DNA from: an uncultured Lachnospiraceae bacterium
Lineage (GTDB): Bacteria; Bacillota; Clostridia; Lachnospirales; Lachnospiraceae
Direction of reading: 5' to 3'
NCBI GenBank assembly: GCA_944376425.1
Contig: CALWCS010000182.1
Span: 74,828-138,827, forward strand
Length of the DNA stretch: 64,000 bases
Every line of letters starts with the position of its first letter. Within the stretch, counting starts at the first letter, position 1. Below are positions 1 through 6,461 of the stretch, piece by piece. The notes below the pieces were generated by a model. That model saw only the letters and a program-made list of their open reading frames with translations, had not been told where the DNA came from and ran no database searches. The translations under genes and the position numbers were made by a program.

Positions 1-340
1 AGCGATCCTTCACAATATAGTCCAGTACTTCCAACTTTAAGTGAAACGTCAGATGCGCCATCTCTGAATGGGAAGTAATAAATACGATAAAGCCTCTAGG
101 ATCTACTTTTCTGATTTCCTTGGCAAGCGAAAAGCCATCCAGATCAGAATTAAGTGTGATATCCAGAAAATAAATACCCATTTGTCCGTCAGATGGAATC
201 GTCTGTAAAATATCATGCGGATTGGAGGAAGCAACAGCGATCTCCATATCCAGGTTATTGATAAAAATAGATTTTTGAATCGACTCCTTGATAAAATTTA
301 GTTGATTAACCTCATCTTCACAGATATAAATATAAAGCAA
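1..340 (-). CDS. AgrA-like LytTR-family response regulator, partial (receiver domain only)
   Basis: The 113 visible codons encode a CheY-like receiver domain: an acidic pocket near the N-terminus (CEDE), the phospho-acceptor region FLDITLNSDLDGF and the conserved ITSHSE segment. The C-terminal half, expected to be a LytTR DNA-binding domain, lies beyond the window edge, so AgrA identity is inferred from the AgrB and AgrC genes alongside. The start is a TTG at 338-340 preceded six bases away by a strong AGGAGGG site (347-353 on the complement); no ATG fits. It is divergent from agrB, and the shared 200-bp gap carries a LytTR-type operator. Its likely role is to respond to phosphorylation by the adjacent kinase and activate agr promoters. 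Confidence 0.8.
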   Translation of the reverse strand, partial: MLYIYICEDEVNQLNFIKESIQKSIFINNLDMEIAVASSNPHDILQTIPSDGQMGIYFLDITLNSDLDGFSLAKEIRKVDPRGFIVFITSHSEMAHLTFHLKLEVLDYIVKDR

Positions 341-541: not shown

Positions 542-1084
542 TTGAAAAAATATTTTAGTCCGGATTGTTCCAGAAGCGAAGTAGAACAGGCACAGATTGC
601 GTATGGATTTCAAGTATTGATGTACAATATCTTTACCATAGCAGTTATCTTTTTGACAGCAGCACTTCTAGGGCTGTTATACGAGACGTTTTGTGTTTGC
701 GTAGGTTTTGGTCTTTTTCGTCTTTGTGCAGGAGGAATTCATCTAAATACAAGAATTGGATGTCTTCTGACAACAGGGAGTATTATGATAGGCGGAGGAG
801 CTTTAGGAAATTATATCAGATTTCCACTGTGGAGTCTGATTTTGATCTATGCAGTCATATTCATCGGGGTGTTTCTGATTGCGCCGCAGGGAACCCTGAA
901 TAATCCGATTTCAGAGGAAAACCGGAAAAAAATGAAAAAACTGTCTTTGTCATTAGTAGCAGTGTACGCCTTACTTTCTATCACAAATCTTGGAGGACTG
1001 AGTTCCTGGATTACCATTGCAGCATTGGCAGAAATGATCACCGTTTTGATTTTATATCTCCAAAAGAGAAAAATCAAGAGATAA
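542..1084 (+). CDS. agrB: AgrB-family autoinducer propeptide-processing cysteine protease
   Basis: A 180-residue polytopic membrane protein of the accessory gene regulator B family, which cleaves and cyclises the AgrD propeptide. The family signature is intact: Arg60, His67 and Cys74 in FRLCAGGIHLNTRIGC, with the same seven-residue His-to-Cys spacing as the catalytic pair of staphylococcal AgrB. Several hydrophobic segments follow, and the tail is basic (KRKIKR). Initiation is at a TTG preceded by GGGGAGGG. The 3' end overlaps the convergent kinase gene by 11 bp. Its probable substrate is the small ORF at 2585-2731, unusually placed beyond the kinase rather than directly after agrB. Confidence 0.92.
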   Translation: MKKYFSPDCSRSEVEQAQIAYGFQVLMYNIFTIAVIFLTAALLGLLYETFCVCVGFGLFRLCAGGIHLNTRIGCLLTTGSIMIGGGALGNYIRFPLWSLILIYAVIFIGVFLIAPQGTLNNPISEENRKKMKKLSLSLVAVYALLSITNLGGLSSWITIAALAEMITVLILYLQKRKIKR

Positions 1085-2378
1085 GAAATGTCAGCTGATG
1101 TTCAAAAATATGATCTTTCATAGTAACCTGATGCAAAACATTCGGATAGTGTGAGAGGATTTCTTCAGCATTGTAAAGTCCGATACCACGCAGAGGTCCC
1201 TTTGTGGAAAACGAAATTTTCTTCATTTGACTGTAGGAAAAATCAGTACCGCTGTAACTGTTTTTTATGGAAATCACAACAGAATCAGGGAAGGAGACAA
1301 TAGCAAATGAGACCATACGCTGTTCGGAATCCTGTGCTGCTTCTACCGCATTATCAAGATAAATTCCAAGAAGCCTGGATAAATCTAAAGAATCCATAGA
1401 GATCTTTTTGATCGGTTCTAAAATTTCGATCTGAACCTCGATGCCAAGTTCATGAGCATAGATCAGTTTGGCTGAAACGAGCCCCTTCAACTCCGGAATT
1501 TTCAGATTATTAAATTGCGCAAGCCGAAAACTATCCTGTGTAAAGCTTTGACTAAAAGGCAGAACCTTTTCATAAAAATATGACTGCATGCCGTCAAAAT
1601 CTTTTGTTTCAAAATATTCTGACATAGAAAGCATAATATTAGCATAGTCGTGCTTAAAAGCCCGAAGTTCCAGATTCATGGCCTCAATTTTTTCTGTGTA
1701 TTGCTGCAACGCTTTATAAGCTTGTTCTTTTTGCTGCTGTCTGTGAGAAGCAATCAGCGTTTTAAGAGAACGATAAGTAGAAAATAAAGTCCAAACCGCA
1801 CAACAGCCAAAAAGAGCAAAATTAAAAAAGATCACAGAATCCGTGTATCCTAATCCCTGACCAGCAATAATATTCAGAAGAAAAATAAGAAGGCAAAGAA
1901 AAAGACTTGGAAAAATCAGTTTTAGGATCTCATTAGAATCAAGTACTGATGCAAGTTTCTTTTTAATAAAAGGAAAAAGAAAGTGAGACAGGAGGAAACA
2001 GATAAAAGATTCTACGATGAGCGATACACAACAGAAAAGAACCATATGGACATAATTTTGCTGAAGTTCAGGAACGGAATGTCCAAATGGTATGAAAAAT
2101 ATTGCTATACAGTGGTCAATAATCGCATATAAAAGATAAGAGAAAAATAGAACACAGATAACGGATAGTTTTTTCTGTGTCAAATGACATAGATAAATAA
2201 GAACAGAAAGCAAAACGACGATAACACTACTATTATTTGTAAGTAGAGTGAAAAAGAGAGAAATAAATAAGATTAAAAATAAAGTACGCAGTTGTTTTAA
2301 AGAAAGGCGAAAAGGCAAAAAAGCAATAATAGGGAGCATATAAAGCAAAGAAGCTAAAAAGATATAGATAACCAGCAT
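1074..2378 (-). CDS. agrC: AgrC-like sensor histidine kinase (GHKL type)
   Basis: A 434-residue membrane sensor kinase. The first ~195 residues hold about six hydrophobic segments, the usual AgrC peptide-receptor module; a short coiled linker leads to an HPK10-type phospho-acceptor motif, FKHDYANIM, and a GHKL ATPase domain with an N-box (DNAVEAAQ) and a glycine box (KGPLRGIGLYNAEEI). The ATG at 2376-2378 was chosen because GGAAGGAG precedes it; a longer frame from 2408 has no such site. Convergent with agrB (11-bp overlap) and divergent from the AgrD-like ORF. It presumably senses that peptide and phosphorylates the regulator at 1-340. Confidence 0.82.
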   Translation of the reverse strand: MLVIYIFLASLLYMLPIIAFLPFRLSLKQLRTLFLILFISLFFTLLTNNSSVIVVLLSVLIYLCHLTQKKLSVICVLFFSYLLYAIIDHCIAIFFIPFGHSVPELQQNYVHMVLFCCVSLIVESFICFLLSHFLFPFIKKKLASVLDSNEILKLIFPSLFLCLLIFLLNIIAGQGLGYTDSVIFFNFALFGCCAVWTLFSTYRSLKTLIASHRQQQKEQAYKALQQYTEKIEAMNLELRAFKHDYANIMLSMSEYFETKDFDGMQSYFYEKVLPFSQSFTQDSFRLAQFNNLKIPELKGLVSAKLIYAHELGIEVQIEILEPIKKISMDSLDLSRLLGIYLDNAVEAAQDSEQRMVSFAIVSFPDSVVISIKNSYSGTDFSYSQMKKISFSTKGPLRGIGLYNAEEILSHYPNVLHQVTMKDHIFEHQLTFLIS

Positions 2379-2493
2379 AGTTTTTTCTCCTTCCATAATT
2401 TCAAACATTCAAAGAAATTATAAAATTTAAGCCGAAAAAAGTCAATTGATATAGAAACGATAGAATTTTTAGTATAATTAAGAAGGAAAAAAA

Positions 2494-2558
2494 GCGTTTA
2501 GGGCGAAAAATGAAGCATTTAGGAAAAAATGAGAAAATATTAATAAAAGTGTTATAAT
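2494..2558 (+). promoter_or_regulatory. Putative LytTR operator and -10 element for the AgrD-like gene
   Basis: GCGTTTAGG (2494-2502) and GCATTTAGG (2515-2523) are near-identical 9-mers with a 21-bp period, again the LytTR operator geometry. A TATAAT lies at 2553-2558. The distance from second repeat to -10 is 38 bp here and 28 bp at agrB, a difference of about one helical turn. It is inferred to be an AgrA-dependent promoter reading into the small ORF at 2585. Confidence 0.5.
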
Positions 2559-2584: not shown

Positions 2585-2731
2585 ATGGAAATAAGAAAAG
2601 AGATGGAAAATTTTTTAATCTGGATGGGAAAACATGCAGTAGGAAAATCAGTTGTAGTAGGTGTCTATGAACCTCCTGTTCCTGAGATTTTAAAGAAACA
2701 GCAGGAAGCTGAGATAAAAGAAAATCAGTAA
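2585..2731 (+). CDS. agrD: AgrD-like cyclic autoinducer propeptide, without cysteine
   Basis: A 48-codon ORF with an AAAGGG ribosome site and a promoter of LytTR type. Its layout matches AgrD propeptides: an N-terminal amphipathic segment (residues 1-17), a short core, and a C-terminal tail YEPPVPEILKKQQ that closely resembles the conserved acidic/proline tail recognised by AgrB. The core reads GKSVVVGVY; there is no Cys anywhere, so a thiolactone cannot form. Ser22 is the only residue near the core able to form an ester (lactone) ring, as in the few Ser-type autoinducers known. Its position in the agr locus supports the call; peptide processing and ring size are inference. Confidence 0.68.
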   Translation: MEIRKEMENFLIWMGKHAVGKSVVVGVYEPPVPEILKKQQEAEIKENQ

Positions 2732-3320
2732 AAGAAAGATTTCTACAGCAAAAAAACGGAATATTTTTAGTTAGAGGGAGTTTTGAAATCTAAAATGGGC
2801 AGAAGGCAGTAGCATGCATATAAAGATATACGGCTGTTTATTTTAAATTAAGATATGCCGAAAAGCTACTGAATCTGATACGCAGAAGAGAAAATATTGC
2901 TATATAACTTTGTGGCAATAAAAAGTACAAAAGATAAAACACAAAAATAGATCTGAAAATACAAAAGTAGGTAAAAAATTAAGTGCAATGATTTAAAATC
3001 CCCAGTATAAACAGTATAAAAGGGTCTGTTTATACTGGGGATTTTTATAATTTTCGGATAAGTGATTTGAATTTCCATTAAAAATTTAAATGAAAAATTT
3101 AAATTAATTTATTGTAATGGCTAAAAAATTAGAAAATATTATAATAAAATAAAAATAATTAAAAACAATAGGTAACTACATCTTATTTTAAAGTGTATTT
3201 TGGAAATTTTCTGTATTAAAATAAAAATATCTAAAAAATAGTTTATACAGCTATAAAAAAGGAAAAGGCAAGAAGAGACAAAAGTTTATGCTATCGGTGA
3301 GATAGCGGAAAGGAGTTTTT
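2732..3320. other. A+T-rich intergenic region with one strong terminator
   Basis: No convincing gene is present; the only ORF over 60 codons (2866-3078, complement) has no ribosome site, is compositionally biased and runs over the terminator. A weak stem is possible between CAGTAGC near 2809 and GCTACTG near 2867. TATAAT at 3140-3145 could be the -10 of the downstream operon, though no good -35 sits 17 bp upstream. A small hairpin (GCTATC/GATAGC) lies just before the ribosome site of the 3321 gene. Confidence 0.6.
2996..3044. terminator. Bidirectional intrinsic terminator after the agr locus
   Basis: Perfect 19-bp inverted arms (2996-3014 and 3026-3044) with an 11-nt loop, A-rich on the left and T-rich on the right. 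It separates the AgrD-like gene from the ABC exporter operon. Confidence 0.85.
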
Positions 3321-4055
3321 ATGGAAAGAGCAAAAAAAATTGGAACAATAGTGATGAGTCTGACTCTTGCGGTAGGATGTGTGCAGGGAACTGGGAGAGA
3401 CCTGAGTGTGGTAAAAGCATATGAATTTTCACCGGTAAATGAGGAACAGCAAGAGCTTTGGGAACGGCTGGAGCCGGAGCAAAAAGCGGGTTATACTCCT
3501 TATATTGAACCTTTTCCAAATGAAGAGTGTACGGTAGCGATGGATGAGTCTGTCAAAATAGTAGACATCGGCAGAGCACGTATGGAATATCGGGTTACCA
3601 ATGCTGAATTTTATCCGAGTATAGAGGCAACTGGGTATGAGGAAGAAGAATTTTTGCTTTCTGAAAGAGGACTTGCCGAAATTGAGATGAGCGAGGGGGA
3701 AACGGGAATTCTGATCGTTACTTTGGAGGCGACTATGCTGGAACCGCCTGAGATAGCATGGAAACAAGAGGAGAATTTAAGAGAGCATGTCAATATCATG
3801 GACAACAATAACCTGATATGCGGAGAGGAAAGAAATTCAGGTCCGATTTTGATGGATGCCGACGATGATGATAAATGGGAAAGAGGAGAACAAGACTACT
3901 ACTATTTTTATTGTGAAGATGAGACACCGACTGTGATAAAGTTAGGGTATGCTGTTGACAAAGATCAGTTAGAAGATGAGATGTATCTGGTATTTACGGG
4001 AAGTCTCAGCACATATGTTTTTCTGTCATTAGATCAGATAGAAACACAGAAATAA
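3321..4055 (+). CDS. Extracytoplasmic protein of an ABC exporter operon (DUF5027-like)
   Basis: A 244-residue exported protein with a basic N-terminus, a hydrophobic stretch and a possible but non-ideal lipobox, LAVGC, at residues 16-20; it could be a lipoprotein or have a plain signal peptide. The body is acidic, without recognised catalytic motifs, and looks beta-rich; I recall similar proteins under the name DUF5027 but could not search. It starts at ATG after AAAGGAG. It is the first gene of a five-gene run with two permeases, an ATPase and another exported protein (6523), so it probably acts as an extracytoplasmic partner of that transporter. Confidence 0.65.
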   Translation: MERAKKIGTIVMSLTLAVGCVQGTGRDLSVVKAYEFSPVNEEQQELWERLEPEQKAGYTPYIEPFPNEECTVAMDESVKIVDIGRARMEYRVTNAEFYPSIEATGYEEEEFLLSERGLAEIEMSEGETGILIVTLEATMLEPPEIAWKQEENLREHVNIMDNNNLICGEERNSGPILMDADDDDKWERGEQDYYYFYCEDETPTVIKLGYAVDKDQLEDEMYLVFTGSLSTYVFLSLDQIETQK

Positions 4056-4078
4056 AAGATTCTCTGATAAAGGTAGAA

Positions 4079-4957
4079 ATGGAAGATGAGATGATGAAAA
4101 ATTGTTTTTTTACGGAATTAAAAAAAGCGTTCGGAAATAAAAGGTTCTGGATTGCTGTTCTTGTGGGAACCGTGATCAGTTTGCTCTCAGCATGGAAGAC
4201 CTTAGAGAGATATTTTGAGGAGATGAGATTTCGCCAGTGGCAGATTCAGTATTCTCCGGATGACTATATGAATCCGGATTTACCTATTTATACAGTATAT
4301 AATAGATGGATCGGAGGAAGTTACGGACAAGTAGAGCTGGATATCTTTTTTTTGCTGATTCCGATCCTTGCGATCCTTGCCTATGCGTGGTCGTATCATG
4401 AGGAGAAAAAAAGCGGATATAGCAGAAATGTAGTCTGCAGAACAGGGAGAACGGCTTATTTTTTTTCTAAGTATATTTCTGCATTTTTGGCAGGATTTAC
4501 GGCAATTCTGATTCCAATGGTCTGTAATTTGATGTTGATCTCGGCATTTATCCCTGCTGTTGCTCCGGATGTCTATTATGATATTTATAATGGGATTATG
4601 ACAGACAATATGGGATTTCAGATGTTTTATGAGATGCCGTTTCTGTTTTTGATTTTAAGACTGACGCTGGACTGTACCGTAGGCGGACTTAGTGCCGCCT
4701 GTGTGGTAGCACTGACATTTTTTATTCGCAATAAGTTTGCATTGATGCTGGCGCCGTTTTTAGCTTTATTGGTGATTCAGTATGCTTCGGCTTTGTGGTA
4801 TTATTATGTTTCGGAAATCAGTATTTCTCCGCTTGAGTTTATCAAAGCGGGATCAAGATCGAGCAGTGCATGGATCGCAGGGGGATATGTCATTGTCATT
4901 TTTCTTCTTTCTTTTGGAATTACGATGTGGAAAGGAGTAAGAGATGATGTTTTTTAA
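4079..4957 (+). CDS. ABC-2 type exporter permease subunit (first)
   Basis: About 290 residues with a short cytoplasmic N-terminus, a first membrane segment near residues 22-40, a ~55-residue extracytoplasmic loop and five further hydrophobic segments, the last at the C-terminus: the architecture of ABC-2 permeases. No ATP-binding motif. Two starts are possible, ATG at 4079 (AAAGG upstream) and ATG at 4091/4094 (GGAAG upstream); the latter would give MMKNCFF or MKNCFF. It overlaps the next permease gene by 14 bp, so the two are surely co-translated and probably heterodimerise. Confidence 0.8.
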   Translation: MEDEMMKNCFFTELKKAFGNKRFWIAVLVGTVISLLSAWKTLERYFEEMRFRQWQIQYSPDDYMNPDLPIYTVYNRWIGGSYGQVELDIFFLLIPILAILAYAWSYHEEKKSGYSRNVVCRTGRTAYFFSKYISAFLAGFTAILIPMVCNLMLISAFIPAVAPDVYYDIYNGIMTDNMGFQMFYEMPFLFLILRLTLDCTVGGLSAACVVALTFFIRNKFALMLAPFLALLVIQYASALWYYYVSEISISPLEFIKAGSRSSSAWIAGGYVIVIFLLSFGITMWKGVRDDVF

Positions 4958-5768
4958 GATGGTTTGGTATGATTTGAAGAACGGACTCTTAAAAGGAAAG
5001 TGGAAATATCTCTTTTTTATGGGATTAAGCCTGATTATCTGCATTGACTTTCGGCTGCGATGGAATTTAATCGATTCTCTGAATGTTCCATCGTACGGAG
5101 ATTTTTTAATGTATATTTTTTCAGGAATGAAAGAATATATTCCATCTCCAATGACACAGTTTCGATATCCGGAAATCTGGATTTTAGTGATGCTTTTGAC
5201 AGCGTATCAGATTCTCTATTATCCGTATCGTGATCTGTCGGGAATGGGAAAACAGGTACTCATTAACTCGAAATCCAGAATAGGATGGTGGTTTTCAAAG
5301 TGTGTGTGGATTTTATGCAGCGTATTTGTTTTCTTTGGAATTTTCTGGATGGTGAGTCTGTTGTTTTGCCTTGTCACAGGAGGAAAATGTTCGCTGGAGA
5401 TTTCCATACGAATGTATCAATATCTTGGAATCACGATCATGCCGGACATGCCATCTGAGCTGAATATTCAGATTTTTCTTCTTCCTCTTTTAGTGATGAG
5501 CAGTCTGGGACTGATGCAAATGACATTGTCTTTTTTTATCAAACCTTTTTACAGTTTTGCTGTGACAATTACGATTTTTGTGGTGTCGTGCTATTATATG
5601 AACCCATGGGTGATCGGAAATTATGCGATGGTACAGAGATCCAGTCTGTTGGTACGAGGAGGAATGGAAGCAGTTCATGGAATTTGTCTGGCGCTTCTTT
5701 TATCCGCCGTTTCTGTGGGGATTGGACTGTTATTTTTCAGGCGGTATGATATTTTAGACAGAGAATAA
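4944..5768 (+). CDS. ABC-2 type exporter permease subunit (second)
   Basis: A 274-residue polytopic protein with about six hydrophobic segments and an extracytoplasmic loop after the first (roughly residues 40-80), similar in plan to the preceding permease but not obviously a close duplicate. It starts at ATG 4944 with AAAGGAG seven bases upstream, inside the end of the previous gene. It is followed after 24 bp by the ATPase gene. Expected to form the membrane channel with the preceding subunit; the substrate cannot be read from sequence. Confidence 0.8.
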   Translation: MMFFKMVWYDLKNGLLKGKWKYLFFMGLSLIICIDFRLRWNLIDSLNVPSYGDFLMYIFSGMKEYIPSPMTQFRYPEIWILVMLLTAYQILYYPYRDLSGMGKQVLINSKSRIGWWFSKCVWILCSVFVFFGIFWMVSLLFCLVTGGKCSLEISIRMYQYLGITIMPDMPSELNIQIFLLPLLVMSSLGLMQMTLSFFIKPFYSFAVTITIFVVSCYYMNPWVIGNYAMVQRSSLLVRGGMEAVHGICLALLLSAVSVGIGLLFFRRYDILDRE

Positions 5769-5792
5769 AAAGAGGAAAAGAGGAAGTATGGT

Positions 5793-6461
5793 ATGATGAC
5801 AATAGAGATGCAGGGTGTGACTAAGATCATAAAAAGAAATACAATTATCGATGATGTTTCTGTATCATTTTCTTCCGGAAAAGTTTATGGCTTAAAAGGA
5901 ATTAACGGATCTGGCAAGACGATGATGATGCGTCTGATCAGCGGTCTGATCCGACCAAATAAAGGGCAGATTCTGATTAATGGAAAGCAGTTGTGGAAGG
6001 ATTTAAACTTTCCGGAGAGCATAGGAATTTTGATTGAAAATCCGAGTTTTCTGGATGATTATTCCGGATTGGAAAATCTGAAAATTTTGGCAGGACTGAA
6101 AAAGAAGATTGATGAAAATACGATTCGAGAGACAATCGCAGAGGTAGGTCTGGATCCCAACGATAAGAAAAAATATAAAAAATATTCTCTCGGCATGAAA
6201 CAGAGACTTGGGATTGCAGCAGCAGTTATGGAACATCCTGAGATTCTTTTGCTGGACGAACCGACGAACGCACTTGACAGTACAGGGATTGAGCAGCTAA
6301 AAAAGATAATAGAAAAAGAAAAACAAAGAGGAGCGCTGATTATTTTAACCTGTCATGATTTTGAGTTGCTCAAAGAATTCTGCGATGAGATTTACTATAT
6401 TGATAACGGAAAGATTACAGATCATTCAATAGAAAAGAAAGAAGAGAGCGGACAGGTGTGA
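5793..6461 (+). CDS. ABC exporter ATP-binding subunit
   Basis: A 222-residue nucleotide-binding domain with a Walker A motif (GINGSGKT, residues ~39-46), an ABC signature (YSLGMKQRLGIA), a Walker B (ILLLDEPTNALD) and a switch histidine in TCHD. The signature SLGMKQR and short length match the DrrA/BcrA-type ATPases that pair with ABC-2 permeases. AGGAAG precedes the start by six bases. It sits between the permeases and the exported protein at 6523 and should energise that exporter. Confidence 0.9.
   Translation: MMTIEMQGVTKIIKRNTIIDDVSVSFSSGKVYGLKGINGSGKTMMMRLISGLIRPNKGQILINGKQLWKDLNFPESIGILIENPSFLDDYSGLENLKILAGLKKKIDENTIRETIAEVGLDPNDKKKYKKYSLGMKQRLGIAAAVMEHPEILLLDEPTNALDSTGIEQLKKIIEKEKQRGALIILTCHDFELLKEFCDEIYYIDNGKITDHSIEKKEESGQV

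Follow-up and report, generated by a model that had tools for sequence, protein, structure and literature searches.

Background

Autoinducing peptides (AIPs) closed as serine lactones are known from Enterococcus faecalis, where the signal is GBAP (PMC7028047, PMC12312760), and from the Staphylococcus intermedius group (PMC10482373, PMC3673130); reviews treat both as rare exceptions. A Ser AgrD is not a substrate for S. aureus AgrB1 or AgrB2 (PMC10482373), and AgrBs that are paired with Ser AgrDs are therefore presumably adapted to them. In S. aureus, AgrB residues R70, G75, H77 and C84 are required for cleavage, and the AgrD cut site is M32/D33-E34, with D33 and E34 both essential (PMC10196373). 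Here, we describe an agr locus in a stretch of 64,000 nucleotides (the window) from an uncultured Lachnospiraceae bacterium (assembly GCA_944376425.1, contig CALWCS010000182.1, positions 74,828–138,827 of the forward strand). Its open reading frame (ORF) at 2585..2731 (+) encodes a Cys-free, AgrD-like propeptide. Taken as a whole, the sequences make it likely that this ORF is the AgrD of a complete agrA-agrB-agrC-agrD locus, that the predicted signal is a Ser lactone, and that agrD is autoregulated by AgrA.

A cysteine-free propeptide with a single serine

The 48-residue product of agrD, MEIRKEMENFLIWMGKHAVGKSVVVGVYEPPVPEILKKQQEAEIKENQ, contains one Ser (S22), no Thr and no Cys. S22 is the sole residue with a hydroxyl or thiol group apart from Tyr28. 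The peptide has the features of the AgrD family: a short amphipathic N-terminus, a core (GKSVVVGVY) that includes a putative nucleophile residue, an acidic PxxP tail (EPPVPEIL), and an AgrB encoded in the same locus, 1.5 kb away. The central Cys of thiolactone AIP precursors is absent from all 48 residues. An AAAGGGA element lies 7 nt 5′ of the ATG. The first-pass annotation had proposed such a Cys-free product with Ser22 as the candidate ring closer, and this description holds; its accompanying statement that AgrB enzymes, so far as known, form a Cys thiolactone was too strong, since GBAP and the AIP of the S. intermedius group both carry a Ser lactone (PMC12312760, PMC10482373).

Conservation was read from an alignment of 14 Lachnospiraceae AgrDs; another alignment (A3) was too diverse to be used in scans. 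The Ser22 column held Ser in 13 of the 14 sequences and Cys in one. The sole Cys form, from genome G143 (locus L009), is GKCMVPGLFDPKIP (GKCMVPGLFDP), and its locus has the same layout as the window. A metagenome-assembled genome found later (L115) encodes GKSIIPGMFDPEIP (GKSIIPGMFDP), which shares both scaffold and layout with the L009 Cys form. Thus the position of the ring Cys is occupied by Ser in the window, L008 and L115, as in precursors of the GBAP and S. intermedius type, and by Cys in L009. Another family of the same order provided an independent Ser/Cys swap (SKCLAMIYEPEMP versus SKSIYLYYEPEMP); the natural Ser/Cys pairs on one scaffold are L009 with L115 and L099 with L097. Since Cys and Ser exchange on one scaffold and in one layout, Ser22 stands at the nucleophile position. 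The earlier proposal of a Ser-closed autoinducer gains support from the swap between L009 and L115, while the ester and the ring size are predicted from sequence.

An unlikely alternative is that AgrB processes AgrD and the product is linear or closed in another way, by a Lys21 lactam or a Tyr28 ester, with Ser22 serving for recognition only. Residue 21 is indeed Lys or Arg in most members of the alignment, yet L079 has Ala and L080 has Glu there, and relatives carry His, Phe or Gly in place of Tyr28, which argues against a Tyr28 ester. A Ser used for recognition would accord with four loci (L010, L074, L077 and L081) that keep the Ser and have Cys at other positions of the core. The replacement of Ser by Cys exactly at this position, in L009 and again in L099, which belongs to a second AgrB clade, fits a nucleophile instead.

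The predicted ring and its processing

S22, E29 and P33 were conserved in at least 90% of the 14 sequences and were the only near-invariant columns; residues 23–27, between S22 and E29, were variable. This is the pattern expected for a nucleophile (S22), a cut-site acid (E29) and a hypervariable ring (23–27). E29 of the window AgrD corresponds to S. aureus E34 (PMC10196373). By analogy with S. aureus, AgrB would cleave AgrD between V27 and Y28, so that the ring would comprise six residues, S22–V27. Together with the alignment and the presence of Cys at this site in L009, the analogy indicates that the lactone ring is probably SVVVGV (2648..2665, +). In the proposed mechanism, the Ser22 hydroxyl would capture the acyl-AgrB intermediate to yield this six-residue lactone; alternatively, the ring would include Y28 and have seven residues. 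Another protease would then trim off the leader at the N-terminus, and the peptide, once exported, would activate AgrC. Phospho-AgrA would bind a direct repeat upstream of agrD and raise its transcription, closing a feedback loop on the propeptide gene.

The locus and the search for another AgrD

AgrA, AgrB and AgrC were assigned via Pfam and NCBIfam. The window opens within agrA (1..340, −), of which it holds the N-terminal part of an AgrA-like LytTR response regulator (partial match to NF046049); the full gene (L002:8407-9168, −; 253 residues) extends leftward beyond the window edge. The AgrB peptidase gene (542..1084, +; 180 residues, TTG start; PF04647, 105 bits) converges with agrC (1074..2408, −), which encodes a sensor kinase with a GHKL domain (PF14501 and a full-length AgrC-like match) that is 40% identical to the AgrC of L009. 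The two genes overlap by 11 bp, and agrD lies on the other side of agrC, pointing away from it. The coordinates bear out the first-pass annotation on both the overlap and the position of agrD.

AgrB, the only one in its genome, has the catalytic residues His67 and Cys74 along with R60 and G65. At a constant offset of 10, R60, G65, H67 and C74 match the S. aureus residues R70, G75, H77 and C84 (PMC10196373). Among 64 AgrB homologues, G65, H67 and C74 are invariant and R60 is present in 63. The AlphaFold model has six helices with a predicted local distance difference test score (pLDDT) of 88, and a fold search of the PDB with AgrB gave no significant match. AgrB had no match in phages and only distant AgrBs in plasmids; a contig scan with the window AgrB as sole query returned no matches.

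The ORF might instead be another small secreted peptide, a bacteriocin or a leader, that resembles AgrD by chance, the true AgrD being elsewhere. The distance of agrD from agrB, which it does not adjoin as in staphylococci, speaks for this explanation. We nevertheless regard it as very improbable, since no other credible AgrD emerged when the whole genome (3.14 Mb, 96% complete) was searched with profiles, and since same-layout relatives hold an AgrD at the same place wherever it can be read, in one case Cys-bearing. The agrD ORF was the sole match of TIGR04223 in this genome. No canonical Cys AgrD, whose discovery just left of the window had been named by the first-pass annotation as a threat to its reading, was found there or in the rest of the genome.

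The only other AgrD-like match in the genome at E < 0.5, on contig C140 (E 0.007), lies antisense within a gene for an AAA/OLD ATPase and was discarded as a chance match. On the same contig (L071, 376-3642), a reverse transcriptase ORF adjoins an ORF for an OLD/AAA-type ATPase, resembling a retron-type defence pair (named by eye).

Conservation of the gene and its layout

A genome of the same genus, G002, carries the same four genes in identical order and orientation. Its AgrD, MGMKRRTEELLIWLGKHSVGKSIFWGVYEPPVPQVLKQQEEKKKCQ, occupies the same place, contains GKHSVGKSIFWGVYEPPVPQVLK, and is 57% identical to the window AgrD. Between the two agrD genes, the proportion of synonymous differences (pS) was 0.81 and that of nonsynonymous differences (pN) 0.25, a synonymous excess similar to that of agrB and agrC; judged by this comparison, agrD is a conserved gene under purifying selection. 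The ORF is kept next to agrC in relatives that have agrB and agrC, the check on conservation that had been suggested earlier. A third genome of the genus, G001, gave no AgrB match, and the locus is therefore accessory.

It is hardly credible that the locus is a relic and the ORF the remnant of an AgrD whose Cys has been lost. A TIGR04223 score under the cut-off and the missing AgrB match in G001 would suit decay, while the strong synonymous excess, the intact agrA, agrB and agrC, the retention of the promoter box and the presence of this Ser in a dozen genomes all stand against it.

The layout agrA(−) agrB(+) agrC(−) agrD(+) is also found in L009, L073, L074, L079 and L115. L010 has agrB(+) agrC(−) agrD(+) in common, agrA not being found on that stretch, and L072 has the order of agrA, agrB and agrC in common, agrD not being found there. 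In the AgrB tree, the rows with the window layout form one group of 8 (support 95/87). As the layout recurs and forms one group, the apparent rearrangement is an old and shared form of the locus. The first-pass annotation, which had called the locus rearranged, was thus right about the position of agrD and wrong if a one-off rearrangement is meant.

The predicted agrD promoter and transcript, and possible output genes

AgrA/LytTR sites typically consist of two direct repeats separated by two helical turns. Such a pair, GCGTTTAGG and GCATTTAGG, 21 bp apart, forms a putative AgrA box 5′ of agrD (2494..2523, +), near the predicted −35 site. The −10 element of the promoter, TATAAT, lies at 2553..2558 (+). 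A half-site pair with the 21-bp spacing was found 5′ of agrD in 5 of 8 same-layout loci (window, L008, L010, L073 and L079); the pattern was built from the window and L008, so that independent support comes from L010, L073 and L079. The distance from the repeat to the −10 element, 35–40 nt, is kept in all five. In 2000 shuffles, the pair was never seen in more than 1 of the 8 loci, and a motif scan of the own genome matched the agrD site only. Given AgrA-type repeats 5′ of agrD, the propeptide gene itself appears to be a feedback target.

Downstream of agrD (2732-3046), about 265 nt of non-coding sequence end in a strong, terminator-like hairpin (2996..3046, +) with a 20-pair stem followed by a T run, giving a putative agrD transcript of ~480 nt. 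The region was considered as an RNAIII analogue and rejected: its folding z-score was −5.1 with the terminator and −1.5 without it, and the Rfam match was under threshold. Structure in this region is due mainly to the terminator.

Possible output genes follow at 3321..6461 (+), and would encode an exported protein with a weak DUF5027 match, two ABC permeases and an ATPase resembling LanF and gallidermin immunity proteins (a LanFEG-like transporter). In L008 and L074, the region 3′ of agrD encodes a secreted DUF2712 protein whose C-terminus is GxWSPDS, together with lipoproteins of DUF5027 type and ABC permeases; a secreted protein of L115 has a similar WSPDS motif near its end. Small secreted proteins with GxWSPDS at or near the C-terminus lie at L008 6382-6795, L074 6265-6687 and L115 7417-7872, and two of them belong to PF10916 (DUF2712). 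They are candidate quorum-controlled effectors. The own genome has no DUF2712 gene. A role of this agr system in competition or immunity would be plausible.

Two further neighbourhoods were recorded. The agr locus of G011 adjoins a LanM-like synthetase and a peptidase-type ABC transporter (L010 374-5280; by eye), which suggests quorum control of a lanthipeptide. In G143, genes for a 93-aa secreted peptide and for FtsX/MacB-like ABC proteins lie 3′ of the Cys-type agrD (L009 3343-5335), possibly a bacteriocin cluster.

How common Ser-type AgrDs are

With the nucleophile column assigned by hand, in a set chosen by similarity to the window AgrB, which is not a random census, and from which loci without a recognisable AgrD next to AgrB were excluded, Ser was found in 11 of 37 AgrD-AgrB pairs of Lachnospiraceae (Cys in 26) and in 31 of all 64 pairs (Cys in 33). 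Cys also occurs elsewhere in some Ser-labelled peptides (L010, L074, L081, L103, L119 and some members of the second family); strictly Cys-free peptides are therefore fewer than the Ser count. The Ser occurs at two spacings, 7 or 8 residues N-terminal to the conserved Pro, the window being of the 8 type. On the AgrB tree, the Ser/Cys label requires 8 changes versus 21.5 when shuffled, and none of 500 shuffles was that low; the two states are therefore long-lived. Since Ser is kept in relatives of many genera, Ser chemistry looks common in Lachnospiraceae. We lean towards the view that Ser-lactone AIPs form a large class in this family, both old and common, with Ser-specialised AgrB lineages, and that the window clade would be marked by a 6-residue ring (spacing +1) and an agrD beyond agrC that carries its own AgrA-type feedback box.

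Several observations weigh against the interpretation of agrD as an autoregulated gene for a Ser lactone made by a specialised AgrB. The ORF scored 15.2 bits against TIGR04223, under the curated cut-off of 19, which is a model threshold and not a biological feature; close AgrD homologues likewise score under it or have no match. The nucleophile is ambiguous in the four loci that have Ser and a further core Cys. Ring size is uncertain because Ser22 stands one residue further from the conserved acid than the Cys usually does. Three of the eight same-layout loci (L009, L115 and L074) have no recognisable AgrA repeat. The label shuffles show clustering on the AgrB tree only, not co-evolution, and no AgrB column consistently separated Ser from Cys types among close pairs.

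The low score has a practical side. TIGR04223 misses the AgrD branch of the window, and annotation based on it would overlook agrD because the score is under the cut-off. If the predicted chemistry is true, Cys-based search rules and this cut-off miss many gut signals. The pairs L009/L115 and L099/L097 would then offer a direct test of how AgrB chooses between O and S.

Comparison with known systems

Clostridial agr systems (agrBD with or without agrCA; agr1-agr3 of C. difficile) share with the window an AgrB and an AgrD with a PxxP tail, and some 6-residue rings are reported among them (PMC12312760, PMC3901668). In the literature searched, neither a Ser-type clostridial AgrD nor a convergent agrB/agrC pair with a distant agrD is described; nor are Ser-type AgrDs of Lachnospiraceae, most subscription journals being outside its coverage.

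FsrD/GBAP of Enterococcus faecalis (fsrABDC) resembles the window in its AgrD-type propeptide, its Ser ring nucleophile and its AgrB-type enzyme (PMC7028047, PMC12312760), the lactone of the window being predicted. In contrast to FsrD/GBAP, the window has a predicted ring of 6 or 7 residues, and its agrD stands apart beyond agrC as a gene of its own, preceded by an AgrA-type box. In AgrD of S. intermedius and S. pseudintermedius, as in the window, Ser replaces the usual Cys, and there the AIP is a lactone (PMC10482373, PMC3673130). That Ser is considered a staphylococcal exception, perhaps a point mutation, in an operon of the form agrBDCA, whereas in the window's system Ser is the normal state throughout a clade of Lachnospiraceae AgrB/AgrD.
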